Shown piece after piece: positions 942 through 34,301 of a stretch of 41,456 bases of DNA. The notes beneath the pieces are model-generated. The model was not told where the DNA came from. It did not search any database and saw only the letters and a program-made list of their open reading frames with translations. Positions within the stretch are counted from its first letter, which is position 1. Each line of letters starts with the position of its first letter. Source of the stretch: a virus; IMG/VR virus record IMGVR_UViG_3300030108_002937, positions 1-41,456 of that record; one strand, given 5' to 3'. Both the position numbers and the translations under genes were made by a program.

Positions 942-1846
942 CGAAACAAGGTGAGGTGTCCACTCATACTAACCACCTTCGTTGATCTGTGAGTGGTGCC
1001 TTTTATGCTCCAAACGTAAACGCCATCTGGTGCGTAGCTCCATCCAGAAGACCCGTCCCATCCCTCTCTGGGATTATCGGTGCGCCACACTACTTGACCC
1101 CATCGGTTGTACACCGTGCACTCCCATCTCCACCAACAGTCTGGCTTGGTTACTGGCTTCCAGTAGTCGTTCATCCCGTCGTTGTTTGGGGTGATGGCGT
1201 TCGATACGTATATGCAGGGATCGTGGCAGTCGTCTACGATAGGTGGTGGACCAGAAGTATCAGTGCTATCTACGGGGTCTGGACCTGATGGCTGTGGCCA
1301 AGGAGGAAGAGTGCATGCGTCTGCCTCCACAGAGAACTCAAGCCAGTTGTTCGATATGTCTTCATCTGGGTATGCAAAACCAGCGAGGCCTTCGCAAGAT
1401 CCGTCAATGCACTCGCTGTCATTGATTTGCATTATTGTAAGCACCATGCAGTCATCAAAAAATATACCCTCCTGCAAGGCTTGCTCCCAGCACGCGAGAG
1501 TGCCACTGCCTGCCATTGGCGTATCCTCGACTATGTTGAACAGCAGAGTGTCTCCAGACTGCAGCACATCGTCTGACCCCTCACCTATGTCGAAACCAGG
1601 AAAGTCTAGCGGGTAAAGCAGAAGCATCCAATCTTCGTTGCCAAAACAAGGCCACGGCGAGACATCGGGTGGCGGGTTGAATCCAAGCGCGAGTATAAAC
1701 TCACCAATGCTGTCAGCCTCAGTTCCACACTGCCCACCGTTTACTACAAGCAGCAGGTCGGTAGAGACGGGATCAAATCCCAATATCTCCATATCGCACT
1801 GCCCGTAACCGAGTATGGGCAAAAAGAAAAGTAAGAGCTTTTTCAT
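938..1846 (-). CDS. Secreted protein with type IX secretion (type B / gliding-motility) C-terminal sorting domain
   Basis: 302 residues. A signal peptide (MKKLLLFFLPILGYGQ) ends in the YGQ/C pattern common in Bacteroidota exports. The middle is acidic and tryptophan/cysteine-rich with no recognised domain, followed by a proline-rich linker (about 185-205). The last about 90 residues carry the CHU_C/gliding-motility signature: SNAITPNNDGMNDYW, VYNRWGQVVW, GWDG, APDGVYVW and a final GHLTLFR. In this family the domain directs export through the type IX system and attachment to the cell surface, so this gene needs host secretion machinery. Its ATG overlaps the stop of the upstream protease gene (ATGA), so they form one transcription and translation unit. 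Confidence 0.85.
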   Translation of the reverse strand: MKKLLLFFLPILGYGQCDMEILGFDPVSTDLLLVVNGGQCGTEADSIGEFILALGFNPPPDVSPWPCFGNEDWMLLLYPLDFPGFDIGEGSDDVLQSGDTLLFNIVEDTPMAGSGTLACWEQALQEGIFFDDCMVLTIMQINDSECIDGSCEGLAGFAYPDEDISNNWLEFSVEADACTLPPWPQPSGPDPVDSTDTSGPPPIVDDCHDPCIYVSNAITPNNDGMNDYWKPVTKPDCWWRWECTVYNRWGQVVWRTDNPREGWDGSSGWSYAPDGVYVWSIKGTTHRSTKVVSMSGHLTLFR

Positions 1847-3594
1847 TCTTCAGGGCATGGTCCAACACTTGCAAGCATTAGCAGCAAGTCGTGGATATTT
1901 ACAGTTTGGTCGGCATTTGGGTCTGTGTAGCAGTTGCCTTCGCACCCAAGGTCTACAAGAAGCTCCAGAACATCTTGAGAACCAATGTATCCGTCACCAT
2001 CGTAGTCCATGTTGCATTGAGGCAGTGAGTTACAGAACGTTTGTTCCCACAGAGAGAACTCAAGTCCAAAGCCCGTAGCTGCGAGTGTATCAAGGCCTAC
2101 TGTTGCCACGAGGCCATCCCCGCCTATGTCGCAGTTACCGTCGCTATCAAAATCAATAGCGCAGAATCCATCACCGTTGGTGTCTTGAATCACGAATGTG
2201 TAACACTCGTCATAGATGCAAGCCTCATAAAGGTAGTCGGCTATACCAAACGGATACCCGTTATCCTGAACCACGACCTCGTCATTGCTGTCATAGAGCC
2301 ACCAGCTGGTTTCATTAGCCCAGGTGTCTGTTGAAACCTTTATTTCCAAAAGGTCCCCCTCGATAACAGATATAGGCCACCACGAAGCGTCGTTGTCTAA
2401 GAACTGATCAAGACTAGATGTTGTTTGGACTGTAAACTCATCTGCACCTTCGACATATACTGATTCGAACAACACTTGAGTTGACCCAGTCGGCAAGTCA
2501 TACAAGGTGGTTGTACCTTGCAGCCCGTTGCAAAAAATTTGTACGTCCACAAGAGGAATAGTTTGAGTGCCTTGATTTACCACGTCAACCCATATATCTT
2601 GATACGGGGTGCACCACTCTTGCTGGTAATACGCCGAGCCAGCGGTTACATCAAAGTCTACTACGGGAACGCAGGAAAGGTTGTCCACCAGCCCTTGCCG
2701 ACTGCCTTGTAGCATCTCGTGCATGCGCTCAGCCTGACCGACAGTGAAGGCGTCTTTACATGTCTCTGGGCTGTAGTCCATAAAGTTCTCTGTGAGGGCG
2801 TCAGGGCATACGGGATTGTCGCAGCTATAGACATTCGAAAGCGTGGATGGAGTGTCGCACACCTGATCGCCCTGAGTTTCGCAGTTAGTTTCTGAACCAC
2901 ATGAAGACGTGTTGGAGAAGGTATGCCACAAAGACAGGTGATGGCCCATCTCGTGGACGCCTGTAAACCCCAAGGTCCTTCCTGGCTTTTGAACCCCAAC
3001 AGTGCCCGTAGCATTGTACAACACCACAACTCCGTCCCTACAGTCACCAGTTGGGCCCAGGTAAGCAAACCCCTGAATGCCATTTTCGCCGTCGTTGTCG
3101 TTGATCTCGGACACAACGTAGTAGTTGATGTACTCGTCAGGATTCCAGCAGCCAGAAGACTCCTTCATAGCTTCCTGATCCCAGCCTACGCCAGCCATTT
3201 GGCCATTGCTAACACCCTGTGAAACATATTGCTCATTCCAGCTTGCATCGTAACGAGTAATCCCATTGGTCGGATTGCCGTCAGGGTCACGCACGGCCAC
3301 ACAAAACTGAATCTTGCTGTCCTCAAACCCCTCATTCAGCACATCAATCTGAGAGAGTATTTGTTCATCAGATACGTTATTCTCTTGTGCAGACCCAGTG
3401 TGTACAATGTGAAACACGACAGGAAGTGTAACGGTGTCGACTTCATCGAGATCCACATCAACCATCTTCTTGAGTCCCATAACGTATGGCTGCTTCTTGG
3501 TGTGCATGATGGTGCACTCCTGGCCAAACATCTCATTCAGCTGGAAGAACCAAGCGGTCAAAATAACAAACCAAACGACATTGATTTTAAACAT
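1843..3594 (-). CDS. Secreted M43-family (pappalysin/cytophagalysin-like) zinc metalloprotease with dockerin-like tail
   Basis: 583 residues from ATG 3594; a GTG one codon upstream is less likely. The N-terminal hydrophobic stretch with FGQ near residue 25 is a signal peptide. The catalytic signature HEMGHHLSLWH is at 214-224 with the usual third zinc histidine. The Met-turn FMDY follows at about 271-274 after a cysteine-rich stretch, exactly the M43 order. The C-terminal 57 residues contain two calcium-loop repeats (MDYDGDGYIGSQD and DPNADQTVNIHD) resembling type I dockerin units. Family members cleave extracellular proteins. Carriage next to phage replication genes suggests a lysogenic-conversion or envelope-degrading function, which is inference. 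Confidence 0.88.
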   Translation of the reverse strand: MFKINVVWFVILTAWFFQLNEMFGQECTIMHTKKQPYVMGLKKMVDVDLDEVDTVTLPVVFHIVHTGSAQENNVSDEQILSQIDVLNEGFEDSKIQFCVAVRDPDGNPTNGITRYDASWNEQYVSQGVSNGQMAGVGWDQEAMKESSGCWNPDEYINYYVVSEINDNDGENGIQGFAYLGPTGDCRDGVVVLYNATGTVGVQKPGRTLGFTGVHEMGHHLSLWHTFSNTSSCGSETNCETQGDQVCDTPSTLSNVYSCDNPVCPDALTENFMDYSPETCKDAFTVGQAERMHEMLQGSRQGLVDNLSCVPVVDFDVTAGSAYYQQEWCTPYQDIWVDVVNQGTQTIPLVDVQIFCNGLQGTTTLYDLPTGSTQVLFESVYVEGADEFTVQTTSSLDQFLDNDASWWPISVIEGDLLEIKVSTDTWANETSWWLYDSNDEVVVQDNGYPFGIADYLYEACIYDECYTFVIQDTNGDGFCAIDFDSDGNCDIGGDGLVATVGLDTLAATGFGLEFSLWEQTFCNSLPQCNMDYDGDGYIGSQDVLELLVDLGCEGNCYTDPNADQTVNIHDLLLMLASVGPCPEE

Positions 3595-3796
3595 CACTCT
3601 GTTTTTTTATCAGGTCGTAAGTTCTACAATCAAGATCACGAATAGGTTCGATGAAGTTCTTATTGCAGTAATCGTTTATCTTTTTTTGCTGCTCTGCGTT
3701 GTTTGTAACGCACACGTGGGCGGCCTGATACTTTGCGTTTTGCTCAAGAAGCTTGTCTATTTTCATCTTGATTTTTTTGTGGCGATTTGTTTTCAT
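3587..3796 (-). CDS. Small basic hypothetical protein
   Basis: 69 residues from ATG 3796. It is Lys/Asn-rich, starts MKTNRHKKIKMKIDKL, and has three cysteines. It overlaps the start of the metalloprotease gene by a few bases and follows the nuclease gene at 3813 after a 16-base gap, so it belongs to the same leftward operon. No family recognised. Confidence 0.5.
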   Translation of the reverse strand: MKTNRHKKIKMKIDKLLEQNAKYQAAHVCVTNNAEQQKKINDYCNKNFIEPIRDLDCRTYDLIKKQSDV

Positions 3797-15043: not shown

Positions 15044-15054
15044 TTGAAGTTTGA
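15044..15054 (-). promoter_or_regulatory. Leader motif copy 3 (TCAAACTTCAA)
   Basis: Exact copy, 11 bases upstream of ATG 15032. Confidence 0.55.
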
Positions 15055-15058
15055 CATT

Positions 15059-15122
15059 GAGAGGTCTTGTATATATACTCTCTTCACTACGTTCAGAGAG
15101 AGTATATATACTAAGACTCTCT
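15059..15122. repeat. Covarying intergenic hairpin 2
   Basis: Same design as hairpin 1 with the identical 13-base loop. The stem GTATATATACTCTCT/AGAGAGTATATATAC is one pair longer, and GTCTT/AAGAC replaces GTGTT/AACAC, a C-G for G-C exchange that keeps pairing. It lies between the genes ending at 15124 and starting at 15032. Confidence 0.85.
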
Positions 15123-15315: not shown

Positions 15316-15543
15316 TTACTGATTATCAAAGGGTTTCACTGACTTGATTCTGTGTCCGTCGGGCACAAGGTCGAGTGCCCGTTGCTTGGCATGGTCGAGT
15401 GACCACGCCTTGAACACGATGGCGTCCCAATCGTCGCGGTCATAGCCACGATAGTACACCATTCGATACTCGTCGGTTGGTACCGACTTTGGGAGCCAAT
15501 CGCTCATCGTGCCCCGCTTGGGGTAGCGTTCCCACACGTTCAT
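15316..15543 (-). CDS. Hypothetical protein
   Basis: 75 residues; ATG 15543 overlaps the upstream stop (ATGA). The core YRMVYYRGYDRDDWDAIVFK followed by AWSLDHAKQRALDLVPDGH looks like a compact beta-alpha-beta domain. No family recognised. Confidence 0.7.
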   Translation of the reverse strand: MNVWERYPKRGTMSDWLPKSVPTDEYRMVYYRGYDRDDWDAIVFKAWSLDHAKQRALDLVPDGHRIKSVKPFDNQ

Positions 15544-15938
15544 GTGAGTTTGATTTCGCAGTCGTTATCGAAGTCCCAAATGGCCTCCTCTCCGCGCTCC
15601 CTGCCCAAGGCGATGGCCTCTTCGCGGTCGAACACGATGTCGGCTACCTCGATGTAGACGTAGTTGTCGTCGTTTATCCACGCACCGATTACTTGCATGG
15701 TCGTGTCGGGCTGACGCTCCATGAACTCAATGTTGAGTTTCATGATTTTTTCGAAGTTGTTGTAAGACAACAAGTCGTTGTCCACCATCTCGACGGAGTC
15801 CGTCGCGCCTCCCACTGCATACGCCTCCCGTGTGGGGTTGTAGCCTTTGAGGTTCTTGTCAACGGAGAATCCGTTGCCGCTCTGCACGTTGAAGTAGCGC
15901 AGAGCCATAAGTTCAGGATATGACATATTTTTGCTCAT
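15540..15938 (-). CDS. Hypothetical protein
   Basis: 132 residues from ATG 15938 with the leader motif 12 bases upstream. An alpha/beta protein with NNFEKIMKLNIEFMERQPDT and VYIEVADIVFDREEAIALGR. The second half resembles small cytosolic phage proteins of unknown role. A longer frame upstream runs through a hairpin and is rejected. Confidence 0.7.
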   Translation of the reverse strand: MSKNMSYPELMALRYFNVQSGNGFSVDKNLKGYNPTREAYAVGGATDSVEMVDNDLLSYNNFEKIMKLNIEFMERQPDTTMQVIGAWINDDNYVYIEVADIVFDREEAIALGRERGEEAIWDFDNDCEIKLT

Positions 15939-15950
15939 CTTTGATGAATT

Positions 15951-15961
15951 TTGAAGTTTGA
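15951..15961 (-). promoter_or_regulatory. Leader motif copy 5 (TCAAACTTCAA)
   Basis: Exact copy, 12 bases upstream of ATG 15938. Confidence 0.55.
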
Positions 15962-15966
15962 CATAG

Positions 15967-15999
15967 ACACCACTTCGTGGTGTTTCGCGCATTCAGCGC
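15967..15999. repeat. Two adjacent short perfect hairpins
   Basis: ACACCAC-TTC-GTGGTGT (15967-15983) and GCGC-ATTCA-GCGC (15987-15999) lie back to back upstream of the 15938 start. The first has the GAA/TTC triloop typical of the hairpin-dense region further right. Confidence 0.7.
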
Positions 16000-16024
16000 T
16001 CATCAGTATGCCTGGGAGTTGACA

Positions 16025-16171
16025 TTACATGTCAACCAAGTCTTCCAAGGTCATCTGCTCTAAGCAGTTGAGTTCGTCCCACGTCGCTGTGGCACGCACT
16101 GCGTCGAATGAGAGGTGAGAGTCGAGGAGGTCAGCGATAAGCTGACGGCGGATGCTGTTGTGCATGTCCAT
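16025..16171 (-). CDS. 48-residue hypothetical protein behind hairpin leader 3
   Basis: From ATG 16171: MDMHNSIRRQLIADLLDSHL then an acidic helix ending LEQMTLEDLVDM. The upstream frame extension begins at a GTG inside hairpin 3 and is rejected. Two overlapping leader motif copies precede it. Unknown function. Confidence 0.6.
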   Translation of the reverse strand: MDMHNSIRRQLIADLLDSHLSFDAVRATATWDELNCLEQMTLEDLVDM

Positions 16172-16175
16172 GGTG

Positions 16176-16193
16176 TTGAAGTTTGAAGTTTGA
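16176..16193 (-). promoter_or_regulatory. Leader motif copy 6, doubled
   Basis: Two overlapping TCAAACTTCAA copies (16176-16186 and 16183-16193), 4 and 11 bases upstream of ATG 16171; the distal one has the standard spacing. Confidence 0.55.
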
Positions 16194-16209
16194 AAAAAAT
16201 TGTTGTCTA

Positions 16210-16272
16210 AGAGTGTCTTGTATATCTCTCTCTTCACTACGTTCAGAGAGAGAGATATACTAAGACTCTCTA
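16210..16272. repeat. Covarying intergenic hairpin 3
   Basis: Stem GTATATCTCTCTCT/AGAGAGAGATATAC with the same 13-base loop and GTCTT/AAGAC outer helix. Relative to copy 1, TATA pairs are replaced by CTCT pairs on both arms at once. It lies between the 16278 and 16171 genes. Confidence 0.85.
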
Positions 16273-16277
16273 AGGGG

Positions 16278-16529
16278 TTAGACTGGAAGTCGGTCTTGGA
16301 AGATGGTAATCTTCACCGCGCCGTCCGTAGCGTGGAAGAGGTGGTCTTTCAGGATTTGTAATCCTGCCAACATCTCTCCTGTTTCTCCGTCCTCTTCGTC
16401 ATCGACGAAGGTGTCGAGAATGTCAATGGCTTCGCTGAAAGCGACAGCGTCGAGCTCCGCGTCCTGCGGGTAGGAAGCGGCAATGTAGCTGATGTCTTCG
16501 ACATCAAGGTCAGAAACTAAGTAGTTCAT
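16278..16529 (-). CDS. Hypothetical acidic protein with hairpin-rich coding sequence
   Basis: 83 residues from ATG 16529: MNYLVSDLDVEDISYIAASY, then acidic and helical with DTFVDDEEDGETGEML. Four perfect hairpins of 6-7 pairs lie inside the gene (16299-16314, 16350-16366, 16394-16410, 16490-16506), and a fifth (16525-16539) covers the start codon. No family recognised. Confidence 0.65.
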   Translation of the reverse strand: MNYLVSDLDVEDISYIAASYPQDAELDAVAFSEAIDILDTFVDDEEDGETGEMLAGLQILKDHLFHATDGAVKITIFQDRLPV

Positions 16530-16572
16530 TTTCAATGAATTAAGGGTTAACAATTAAACTAATCCTAAAGGA

Positions 16573-17091
16573 TTAGAAGGGAAGACCATCGTATCCAACT
16601 TCGTTGGAAGGAGAGCCGAGAGTCGTAGACTCCATGTGCACAGCGAGCACTGCGGTGAGAGCCTCGATTTTAGCTTCCAAGGAAGCTACCTTGTCGGCAG
16701 TGTCGGCCTGAGCTTTCAGCTCAGCCTTGCGAGCTGCTCTCTGAGCAGCTCCAGTAGCTTCGCTGACTGCTTTGGCTGATGCCGCAGCTTCCTTAACGGA
16801 AGCTGTCTTAGCCTTCTTCGAAGGCTTGACAGGACCAACTTCGTTGGTCTTGAGTGCCGCTCTGTCTTGGCGGTCTGCCACCTTCTGTGAAGGTGTTCTC
16901 TTCGTCGTCTTACGACGACGCTTCTTCGACTTAGCCTTCTTCGAAGGCTTGTCTTTCACCTCTTCCAAGGAAGAGATGAACTCAACAGCTTCTGAAAGAA
17001 GCTGCAAAGCCAGAGCTTTACGCTCTGCTGTTGGACGGAAAGTGGCTTGGTTGACTGCCTTACGGCAGTCGGAGAACTGGAAGTTATTCAT
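16573..17091 (-). CDS. Lysine/alanine-rich histone H1-like protein with SSB-like C-terminal tip
   Basis: 172 residues from ATG 17091, with the leader motif 12 bases upstream. The N-terminal about 45 residues are a helical domain (PTAERKALALQLLSEAVEFI). Then comes a very basic segment (KDKPSKKAKSKKRRRKTTKR, with KPSKKAK repeated at about 89), an Ala/Lys-rich linker and a C-terminal helix, ending GYDGLPF. The basic low-complexity middle suggests DNA or RNA binding, and the acidic-to-PF end resembles an SSB interaction tip. The coding sequence contains about 16 perfect hairpins, one covering the start codon. Confidence 0.7.
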   Translation of the reverse strand: MNNFQFSDCRKAVNQATFRPTAERKALALQLLSEAVEFISSLEEVKDKPSKKAKSKKRRRKTTKRTPSQKVADRQDRAALKTNEVGPVKPSKKAKTASVKEAAASAKAVSEATGAAQRAARKAELKAQADTADKVASLEAKIEALTAVLAVHMESTTLGSPSNEVGYDGLPF

Positions 17092-17103
17092 CGTAGATGA
17101 AGT

Positions 17104-17114
17104 TTGAAGTTTGA
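17104..17114 (-). promoter_or_regulatory. Leader motif copy 7 (TCAAACTTCAA)
   Basis: Exact copy, 12 bases upstream of ATG 17091, with a partial second copy at 17098-17107. Confidence 0.55.
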
Positions 17115-17133
17115 CTTCCCAAAGGGCCGACTC

Positions 17134-17361
17134 TCAAAGCCCTTTAGGAGGGAATAGAAAGAAGAGAGAGTCATAGACTCCTCTCTCTCTTCTTCCTATC
17201 CCTCTAGTTTTCCACTGCTTCATTCCTCTACGAAGTAGAGTAATGGTTGAGGCCAAATCTCGGTAGTCGCAGGAAGCCAACAAGTTGGCTACGCAGGCTA
17301 CGGCGCTGCACACCGCTCCGCCAAGGGTTTTGCTGTTGGTATTTGTATTGCTAATAGCCAT
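17134..17361 (-). CDS. Possible small gene in the hairpin region
   Basis: 75 residues from ATG 17361 (a longer version starts at 17397): MAISNTNTNSKTLGGAVCSA, then VACVANLLASCDYRDLASTI and a basic TLLRRGMKQWKTRGIGRRER. The middle reads like a helical protein, but the end degenerates into translated hairpin sequence and no leader motif precedes it. It would be the first leftward gene if real; otherwise 17092-17907 is wholly non-coding. Confidence 0.3.
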   Translation of the reverse strand: MAISNTNTNSKTLGGAVCSAVACVANLLASCDYRDLASTITLLRRGMKQWKTRGIGRRERGVYDSLFFLFPPKGL

Positions 17362-17788
17362 AGCTATTAGGATTGTCAACAACATCGGGGTGGTCAATGG
17401 CTACTCAAGTTGGAGTAAGACTCCAAGCTGTTGGACCAAAGGGGGTGATTGTCAACGCATTATGCCCAGGAACAACGCGTTGCCCTTTCAGCAGTTGATG
17501 CTAAAGCATCAGTTTAAGGCTTCAGGTCTAAAGACCTGTAGCACAGCAAGTTGGGGTCAAAACTTAGGGTCGATTAGCTTGCTAATCGTTGGGGAGGGGG
17601 TCTCAGAAAACGAGTTTTCTGTCAGGCTGCTGTCCTCACACGATACATATAATCCCCACCCTACGTAGATCTGATCGTTTTTTTCGCGCTTGACTCCCTT
17701 CAACCAAAAAACATCAGGCCAGGCAGTAACAAGCTAACTATCTGTAAGGCAGTACATTGCGCAGATTGGTTAAAGTATTGCTAGACTC

Positions 17789-17819
17789 TTGACTTTTAAA
17801 AAAAAAGGTTATAACTTTG
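17789..17819 (+). promoter_or_regulatory. Rightward late promoter, Bacteroidota type
   Basis: TTGAC at 17789-17793 and TAACTTTG at 17812-17819 match the TTTG / TAnnTTTG consensus; TTG and the -7 box are separated by 20 bases and an A9 tract. It would give a leader of about 85 bases ahead of the ATG at 17908. Confidence 0.6.
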
Positions 17820-31190: not shown

Positions 31191-34100
31191 ATGCCCTTAC
31201 AGTATGCTGCGAATGCTACCGTAGACATATCTGTCCAGGCGGTAGAGATATCCTTAAATATGTCCCCATCTTCGGCGGACACCACGGTACACATAGTGTC
31301 CGAGGAGGAGACTGTAATTCTGCCCGTATACGGAAGCGATAGCGCTCCGATAACTACAGGAAACCTGAGTGTAATTACCACTCTAGAATTTGAGGATACA
31401 GATCATGTTATCCAGCCTCCTGTAGATGGGTACAAGACCGTAAAGATAGACCCGTTGCCTTCAACAGAGGAGGAGAGCTTTACCTTGGATCTACTGCCTG
31501 TACAGCTCGTCCCGTTTATCTTCGAGGTGCAGACGGATAACTTAGTGTATCACGATTACGATTACTATATTTTTACCAACAATCAGTACGAGCAGCGCAC
31601 GACAGATCCTAATCACGCTACTCTTTCTCTCCAAGTTGTTGATGAAAGCAATGGATTACGGCTTACTGAGATTACGTGGCTACCCTCTGCCACTCCTTCT
31701 CCAGGAGCTGCCGTTATAAGCAGCCCCGCAGACAGCTACACCTTACCTACTGTAGATGGCGGCGTATATAACTGCACCGTAGAGTGGGGAGACGGGACTA
31801 CATCTACCATAACGTCTTGGAATCAGTCCGAGGTGACGCACCAGTACCCTTCCGCTGGCAAGTATAGAATAAAAATATCTGGTCAGTTCGAGGGTATAAA
31901 TTTTCACCGTCACGAAGAGCTCAATCATCACGATCACCTAAAGCTTCTAGATGTAATATCGTGGGGCGATGACAGCAAGATGGATATAGCTGGATATGTA
32001 AGCCCGTTTAATCCTCACGGTGTGATAAGCGATGGGTCGGGTGGTTTTATGACTCAATACGTTGGTATGTTCTGTGGTTGTAAAAACTGGAACGATATAT
32101 CTGGGGGAGCCCCAAACTGGGGTACGTGCGGGACAGCAAAGACGCGGCATCCCGACGGAGACGGGAGAAAATTTGGAGGATCTCCACTTATCACCATCTT
32201 TTACGGAAATTCTTCACTGCAGGCTGATATATCTGTATGGACTACCGAAGACAGGCCGTTTACTGGCAACGCCTACAGGCATTTTGAAACGCGGCCTAGA
32301 GCTTCAGATATAGATACATTTAAGGCTAACTTTCACTGGCTGGTCGGTAACAGCAATCATTGGAAGATGTTTACAAATCGAAGTGTTGTTTCTGCCGAAG
32401 GCAACAGCCTTTTGCGTTCTAACCGCAACTCTAGATTTGAGGTCTCTAACTGGAAGCTTGACCCTGCGGTCCAAAACATTGGCTGGCAAACTACATTTAA
32501 CGGCAACCTTAATATGGACCCCGACGTAAGCAACCTAGTAGGGCCTAAGGTCAACACTGTCGCATATATTTTTAACGGTGCTGATTCGTTTACTGGTCGT
32601 GGCTTAGAAAACTGGGATATATCTGGAATAGATACAAATAATGGCAACTCAGCAGGATTCACCCAGGCTTTTGCGGGCACTGCGATAAATAAAATCCTAC
32701 CCTGGAACTTTGCCTTCGGCGCCAGACTCAACAATATGCTTTTCAACTGTGAGCTATATGACTCTCCGTGTAACGGATGGGATACATCTGGGGTGTACCA
32801 AGCTAGTGGCCTTTTCAATGAAGCATCCAGCTTCAACAACGGGGGAGTCAGTTGGACCGACGCAGACTGGACCAACTGTCAGACATTTGGGTCGATGTTT
32901 AAAAAAACCTTATTTAATCAAGACGTAAGCAGGTGGAAGCTCTCTACGACTAGAGATTTTTCAATGAAAAGCATGTTTATGCAAACTCCTTTCAATCGAC
33001 CCGTGAATACTACCGTAGTCGATGGGGTAAAGTATTGGGATATGTCTCGATGCACGAATACGTCATCAATGTTCTACGGTTGTGGCTCCTTTAATCAGCC
33101 GCTGGACGCATGGGACATGTCTAATGTGACTGACATAAGCACCATGTTCTACCACGCCAGCCAATTTAATCAACCCCTCAATACCTGGAATACGAGTAAC
33201 GTAACTAATATGTCCAGCTTGTTTTACGACGGCAACGACACACACAATTTTAATCAACCTCTAAGCAACTGGGATACCTCAAAAGTCACTCAGATGCAAC
33301 AGCTATTTAGAGCCTGTAGGTCCTTCAATCATCCTCTTGTCACCGACGGAAATAAGTGGGATGTAAGCAAGGTTACTAATATGTCTGGCATGTTTTATCA
33401 TTGCAACGCTTTTAACCAGCCACTTAATTCCTGGGATGTAAGTAGTGTTGTTAATTTTAGCAATACCTTTAATCGTGCCACTGCCTTTAATCAACCCCTT
33501 TCGAACTGGGATACTTCTAGTGCAACAAATATGAGCGGCATGTTTACGTATGCTCCTAGTTTTAACCAAGACCTTTCTACAAATGGAAGCAAGTGGGATG
33601 TTTCGAATGTAACGAACATGGATTATATGTTCATCGGCGCGACGGCATTTGAAGGTCAGGGACTAAGCACCTGGGATGTTTCTAGTGTTGAAAGCATGAG
33701 CCACATGCTTTACAACTGTGACAGTCTTCCATCCACTCTAGACCTCAGTAGCTGGGATGTCTCTAATGTGAAAAAGATGGATCACATGTTTTACGATATT
33801 GATGGCTTAAACCACAACATCGCTGGATGGGTCACATCCTCCCTTACTACCACTAGGCAGATGTTTTATAGTAACAACGCTTTTAACAGGGATCTATCTA
33901 ACTGGGACATGAGTAACGTCACTGATGCCAGAACCATGTTCCAGAACTGTAATTTATTCAATCAAGATCTCTCAGGCTGGAATCTTAGTGGAATTGTCCA
34001 GATTACCGACGGAGACGGCGTTACAGGTACGGTATCTACAGGTAACTCCACGAATAACAACGGAGACTATTCATCAGGCATTATGAAAATCTTTCAAAAT

Positions 34101-34301
34101 ACAGGCATGTCAAAGACTAATCTTGATGCCACCATCAGCGACTGGTGCGACAACTCAGGTATAGTCAGTGGGGCTCAGCTTGGAACGATACCTCTTGACA
34201 ACAGCGGAGCCTCTGAAAGGCTGGACGATACTACTATATCGAAGATGCGGGATAAGAACATGACCGCCCAATATACTGACGGAACTGAGGTTACCTCTTA
34301 A
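31191..34301 (+). CDS. Giant DUF285/BspA-type repeat protein, probable receptor-binding or adhesion protein
   Basis: 1036 residues. N-terminal about 170 residues are beta-rich. A PKD/BspA-type segment follows (VEWGDGTTSTITSWNQSEVT then HQYPSAGKYRIKISGQFEG, about 205-245). From about 430 to 960 there are some 15 DUF285 units with W-D-x-S-x-V-x-x-M-x-x-M-F and F-N-Q-P-L cores. Such repeats form solenoids in surface proteins of Mycoplasma, marine bacteria and eukaryotic commensals. Gene position between portal and capsid genes suggests a virion appendage. Third-base differences between units show old divergence, not recent duplication. Confidence 0.85.
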   Translation: MPLQYAANATVDISVQAVEISLNMSPSSADTTVHIVSEEETVILPVYGSDSAPITTGNLSVITTLEFEDTDHVIQPPVDGYKTVKIDPLPSTEEESFTLDLLPVQLVPFIFEVQTDNLVYHDYDYYIFTNNQYEQRTTDPNHATLSLQVVDESNGLRLTEITWLPSATPSPGAAVISSPADSYTLPTVDGGVYNCTVEWGDGTTSTITSWNQSEVTHQYPSAGKYRIKISGQFEGINFHRHEELNHHDHLKLLDVISWGDDSKMDIAGYVSPFNPHGVISDGSGGFMTQYVGMFCGCKNWNDISGGAPNWGTCGTAKTRHPDGDGRKFGGSPLITIFYGNSSLQADISVWTTEDRPFTGNAYRHFETRPRASDIDTFKANFHWLVGNSNHWKMFTNRSVVSAEGNSLLRSNRNSRFEVSNWKLDPAVQNIGWQTTFNGNLNMDPDVSNLVGPKVNTVAYIFNGADSFTGRGLENWDISGIDTNNGNSAGFTQAFAGTAINKILPWNFAFGARLNNMLFNCELYDSPCNGWDTSGVYQASGLFNEASSFNNGGVSWTDADWTNCQTFGSMFKKTLFNQDVSRWKLSTTRDFSMKSMFMQTPFNRPVNTTVVDGVKYWDMSRCTNTSSMFYGCGSFNQPLDAWDMSNVTDISTMFYHASQFNQPLNTWNTSNVTNMSSLFYDGNDTHNFNQPLSNWDTSKVTQMQQLFRACRSFNHPLVTDGNKWDVSKVTNMSGMFYHCNAFNQPLNSWDVSSVVNFSNTFNRATAFNQPLSNWDTSSATNMSGMFTYAPSFNQDLSTNGSKWDVSNVTNMDYMFIGATAFEGQGLSTWDVSSVESMSHMLYNCDSLPSTLDLSSWDVSNVKKMDHMFYDIDGLNHNIAGWVTSSLTTTRQMFYSNNAFNRDLSNWDMSNVTDARTMFQNCNLFNQDLSGWNLSGIVQITDGDGVTGTVSTGNSTNNNGDYSSGIMKIFQNTGMSKTNLDATISDWCDNSGIVSGAQLGTIPLDNSGASERLDDTTISKMRDKNMTAQYTDGTEVTS

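Follow-up and report, generated by a model that had tools for sequence, protein, structure and literature searches.

Genes and hairpins at the early-late junction

The window analysed here is a stretch of 41456 nucleotides of DNA from an uncultured phage (IMG/VR record IMGVR_UViG_3300030108_002937), in which leftward early genes, among them those for a primase/helicase and an exonuclease, give way to rightward late genes near 17.7 kb. A single-copy conserved block (17643–17684, minus strand) consists of an A-tract, a GAG-like element and GTGGGGATTATATGTA. The leader that runs from it to the P0001 gene (17092–17621, minus strand) has no conserved gene; it includes a C-rich stretch, assigned to the minus strand (17591–17600; GGGGAGGGGG on the plus strand), which recurs after the block in relatives. 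The P0001 gene (16573–17091, minus strand) encodes a Lys/Arg-rich protein of 172 amino acids with a conserved N-terminal helical pair. No family match or PDB relative was found for P0001, and its structural model, with a pTM of only 0.28, predicted a helical pair, a basic linker and a long helix. Further minus-strand ORFs encode an acidic protein of 91 amino acids (16278–16553, for which an internal ATG start, MNYLVSDL, is also possible) and proteins of 70 (16025–16237) and 150 amino acids (15540–15992). A conserved rightward promoter of flavobacterial type (TTGACTTTT..TATAACTTTG; 17789–17819, plus strand) was found again in many relatives. A CAAACTTCAAACTTC-like motif (minus strand; 17101–17117, 16179–16195 and 15946–15962) was present directly ahead of several leftward start codons and is a possible translation signal. 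Longer imperfect inverted repeats of the TATATCTCTCTC-TGAACGTAGTGAA-GAGAGAGATATA type, possibly terminators or operators, were located between small early genes (16201–16265 and about 15050–15110), with similar repeats in genomes G007, G008 and G009.

The initial annotation had described a forest of short perfect hairpins between 16299 and 17621, which proved to be real. For the main counts, hairpins were defined as non-overlapping, with a perfect stem of at least 6 bp and a loop of 3–6 nucleotides. This region contained 29 of them, compared to 1.5±1.2 in dinucleotide shuffles (n = 100, maximum 5), and 19 with stems of at least 7 bp, compared to 0.44; all seven hairpins given as examples were exact at their coordinates. 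The whole forest extends from 15724 to 17621, has no assigned strand and comprises 36 perfect hairpins, with a density peak at 16594–17101 and a leftward fade; the region from 15601 to 16298 contained 7 hairpins where 0.6 were expected. As the forest also covers about 15724–16298 and fades on this side, a sharp edge exists only on the right (17621), next to the block, and the drop originally reported at both ends holds for that edge alone. The rest of the window was near background, with 30 hairpins (15.2 expected) between 1 and 16000, a range that takes in the first forest hairpins, and 27 (20.5 expected) between 18000 and 41456. DNA folding gave z-scores of -8.8 and -7.3 for two 500-nucleotide forest blocks and -0.2 just outside the forest; the rightward promoter also lies outside.

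The hairpins run across coding and non-coding DNA alike. The P0001 gene contained 14, compared to 1.9 when its codons were shuffled (maximum 6 in 1000 shuffles), and the ORF for the 91-amino-acid protein contained 5; the 70- and 150-amino-acid ORFs lie in the fading part, the latter with 5 hairpins compared to 0.6 in codon shuffles. Neither dinucleotide nor codon shuffles, the control that had been proposed, reached the observed density. Chance and base composition were rejected by the former, and codon usage and amino-acid composition by synonymous-codon shuffles of the forest genes, in agreement with the original view that codon bias cannot explain the hairpins. Nearly all stem sequences in the window differed and a single whole hairpin was present twice; a REP-like repeat family was rejected, the stems being unrelated.

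Distribution of the field and the conserved block

Searches with P0001 (172 aa) and a P0001 alignment yielded 58 IMG/VR loci from uncultured, mainly marine phages, which carried the same field, weaker in distant loci. Almost all of them had a clear hairpin excess around the P0001 gene, with about 20–37 hairpins per locus in close relatives and 4–20 in distant ones, some counts being reduced where contig ends cut the field. Four of four near-complete genomes (58–65 kb) had one field each. An assembly artefact is unlikely, since the 58 loci come mostly from separate metagenomes. Among annotated phages, the terminase of the window was most similar to that of a phage from Manatee Spring (49%), followed by those of the elemo phages of Flavobacterium (41%) and of Cellulophaga phages (about 35%), with crAss-like phages more distant. 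No forest was found in the cultured relatives MW202828, elemoF, phi13:2, phi38:1, Gundel_1, phi14:2 and crAss001, for each of which 42–50 kb was covered, and a DNA search in phages and a P0001 search of bacterial genomes revealed no relatives.

The block (consensus AAAAAA..GAG.AAT..GTGGGGATTATATATA, minus strand of the window) bordered the field in the majority of the 59 sequences, GGGGATTATAT being almost unchanged among them, and the forest began 10–71 nucleotides past it in most loci. Averaged over 48 loci, density was 0.04–0.23 hairpins per 100 nucleotides before the block and 1.5 in the first 100 nucleotides after it, peaking at 2.6, then decayed on this one side to background by about 2.2 kb. 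In most loci the rise at the block was about tenfold.

A DNA scan with the block alone recovered 41 contigs, some with no hairpins past the block and others with up to about 20 per kb; the block is thus conserved in more phages than the forest is. P0001 was mostly missing from block-bearing sister phages whose hairpin excess was small or nil: no P0001 match was found in the forest-poor genomes G014 and G015 or in the contigs behind loci L204 and L209, and G016 had a weak match and a few hairpins. Three loci (L026, L029 and L075) encoded a diverged P0001-like protein and had only 4–7 hairpins. P0001 and several small early genes differed in the forest-poor genomes, a comparison confounded by clade. 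Forest-poor phages, too, had no convincing gene over a long stretch past the block.

Many contigs (L099–L156 and L173–L212, several near genome length) stopped about 0.1–3 kb past the block. A fixed genome end was rejected, as the contig ends cluster there at varied positions; assemblies may have been broken by the hairpins or strain variation, or the genome may end close by. The choice of contigs may also be biased by the requirement of IMG/VR for late hallmark genes.

Turnover of stems and loops

A given place could hold a hairpin in as many as 27 of 28 relatives, and the hairpins at one place had as many as 15 different sequences; in the leader, places were kept while stems turned over. Covariation was 0.122, compared to 0.069 after shuffling (0/500 as high) and at most 0.067 in slid controls; the test structure came from the window itself, which biases the percentage paired in its favour, and relatedness among sequences inflates such shuffle tests. 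Comparison with relatives, suggested at the outset as a check, found the stems conserved as pairs with compensatory changes. Perfect hairpins outnumbered those with one interior defect by about twelve to one (671 and 57, in 29 loci). Among 35 unique perfect-to-perfect pair changes, 18 were transitions and 17 transversions, a mix resembling that of the linkers. Of 15 unique multi-site loop changes, 7 were exact inversions, where 1.7 were expected; looser grouping gave 21 of 157 (10.3 expected). Template switching is described as producing arm homogenisation and spacer inversion (PMC8604942), and the co-change of arms and the loop inversions seen here support the earlier suggestion of such replication errors.

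In about 900 nucleotides of leader, three C:G to A:T changes, all within 36 bp, separated the window from L099; two of them affected the paired bases of one stem. A tiny recombination tract is a possible source; the changed stem was seen in no other aligned locus. The gene for the 91-amino-acid protein (about 16266–16620) had strongly diverged between these two sequences, the remainder of the 3 kb compared being almost identical, and this difference is a recent allele swap.

The hairpins could also be a mutational by-product. A template-switch hotspot next to the block, at a stalled fork or an R-loop, would then write and re-perfect functionless hairpins, and the forest would be an extreme case of a known process. 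Arm co-change with a linker-like mix of transitions and transversions, exact loop inversions, the paired change in a near-identical pair and the phages that have the same block without the forest are all consistent with this, and there are precedents in yeast (PMC8604942) and in Nematomorpha mitochondria (PMC6649704). We nevertheless consider it rather unlikely, because it sits poorly with the lack of a comparable excess in the rest of the genome, with the conservation of places during stem turnover, with the scarcity of decayed hairpins and with the enrichment of stable loops over hairpins elsewhere. The last three argue for some selection. The perfect stems are probably due to template switching from arm to arm together with selection, two processes that are not fully separable from sequence alone.

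Triloops dominated among the loops. C-GNA-G was among the leading loop classes, yet most loops differed, and the minus-strand C-GAA-G loop, initially described for many hairpins, was common but accounted for 6 of 36 hairpins between 15724 and 17621. Loops of the G..A type followed the gene strand inside P0001 but lay on the opposite strand in the leader, a pattern that coding may partly drive; with polarity shifting in this way, neither strand stands out as the one used. Helical-phase spacing was weakly apparent in the gene part (R 0.42 at 11 nucleotides) and absent in the leader, and was dismissed as probably a product of shared ancestry.

If the block were an early promoter, hairpins in the first 2 kb of leftward transcript could control mRNA stability, translation or RNase access. 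In favour of this, the forest starts shortly past a promoter-like block in most loci, fades with distance and crosses the first leftward genes, and RNA folding gave z-scores of -6.1 and -10.8. Antisense folding, however, was equal to or better than sense, and the leader loops point to the opposite strand. A structured RNA should also tolerate G.U on the transcribed strand and covary mainly by transitions, neither of which was seen. Single-arm changes gave 43 G.T and 48 A.C, there was no G.T excess at the pair just past the stem end, and G.U was favoured on neither strand, including over A.C on the gene strand, so RNA-level selection for G.U is unsupported. Half of the paired changes were transversions, which is unlike the usual path of RNA covariation. 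We regard structured early mRNA as improbable, and the structured-RNA regulator first proposed is disfavoured by the G.U results. The absence of a G.U preference, the transversion-rich pair changes and the triloops, many of them C-GNA-G, favour hairpins formed by DNA. In phage N4, a loop-closing C-G pair with a 5′ G and 3′ A in the loop allows small hairpins to extrude at physiological supercoiling (PMC4496689).

Candidate role of the field and known systems

We tentatively prefer to read the forest as an array of small DNA hairpins that would function when single-stranded or strongly supercoiled, beside a block that is a candidate replication origin or early promoter. The array starts at this unique conserved block, which as an early promoter would open the region, and runs about 2 kb one way into the early genes; the neighbourhood of this origin or early launch site would become single-stranded. 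The hairpins would be selected, probably as sites of strand initiation, protein loading or pausing in early replication, and are perhaps bound by P0001, the basic protein whose gene lies in the array. Template switching between arms together with selection would keep stems perfect, and the differences between stems would limit recombination between hairpins. The lambda O gene, which contains its own origin, is a parallel for a protein encoded within the array that it would bind.

An origin or early launch site fits the locus because of the unique block, the one-sided decay, the divergence of early and late genes and the gene-poor stretch; an AT-rich block that is unique and conserved, with no convincing gene over a long stretch behind it, would also fit a long-leader promoter. 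In near-complete relatives GC skew turned elsewhere and did not switch at the block, and so was negative as evidence for an origin. The block's own function does not depend on the forest, since sister phages have the block with few or no excess hairpins. The original proposal of an origin or strand-initiation zone is favoured as a candidate, with the skew and these sister phages against it. It is possible, though somewhat less likely than the array reading, that the forest is a self-maintaining structural field of DNA, in which dozens of hairpins are free in sequence and inherit their shape by arm-to-arm copying during replication. This would give a shape-only array by a phage origin, superimposed on genes, to which a protein with its gene in the array might bind.

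The statement in the initial annotation that no named element looks like this found no counter-example: no report of such a hairpin field was found in the literature searched, of which coverage was incomplete, and the nearest systems were N4 promoters, Nematomorpha palindromes and quasi-palindrome mutation. The F plasmid Frpo and ssi sites are single-strand DNA hairpins beside a one-directional start site, but they are one or a few sites rather than a dense array, and no nick or transfer is known for the forest. REP/BIME elements are likewise many small palindromes, but these repeats share sequence, whereas the forest stems are nearly all unrelated and also occur inside genes. Template switching has been proposed for palindromes in Nematomorpha mitochondrial genes (PMC6649704), which are perfect inverted repeats within functional genes, with some midpoints common across species and concerted arm evolution. 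Their arms are at least 15 bp (mean 43) and they are spread over the mitochondrial genes, whereas the forest has arms of 6–9 bp in one bounded, block-anchored field. Quasi-palindrome mutations (PMC8604942) show the same arm homogenisation and loop inversion, but are scattered single events in yeast genes and not a dense field kept across 58 loci.

The early promoters of the N4 virion RNA polymerase, with stems of 5–7 bp and 3-nucleotide loops, resemble the forest in their short stems, many variable stem bases and adjacent early genes; their C-GNA-G loops correspond to one leading loop class of the forest, in which most loops differ. The hairpins could be multiplied promoters of this type, recognised by a virion RNA polymerase; hairpin size is similar, and Crassvirales have been described with a broadly N4-like transcription programme (PMC10136315). 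This is very improbable, as the N4 promoters are three single sites in which certain bases are conserved, whereas the forest has 20–40 hairpins, many within genes, no conserved stem bases and no such polymerase detected. In sequence searches of the giant virion proteins tested, the 2668-amino-acid protein matched LPD38 only, with no PDB relative and no T7-like virion RNA polymerase, and no polymerase was recognised in the 2088-amino-acid protein.

As each of these systems differs in a main respect, we judge the anatomy of the forest to be new in kind. If this is true, it would be a genetic element whose identity lies in DNA shape and not in sequence, one that many phages retain, that overlaps genes and that is tied to a single site. 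The maintenance of perfect hairpins by template switching and selection could be studied in it as a natural system, and it points to a candidate origin or early control region in a large group of uncultured phages.

Among Rfam families, the window matched two tRNAs only and the forest had no known RNA family match. The tRNAs, tRNA-Ile (anticodon TAT) and tRNA-Arg (TCT), are located between 25744 and 26146, immediately ahead of the terminase gene. Additionally, the early arm encodes a Peptidase_M43-like protein (1843–3597) and the late arm a protein of 1036 amino acids with DUF285 repeats (31191–34301).
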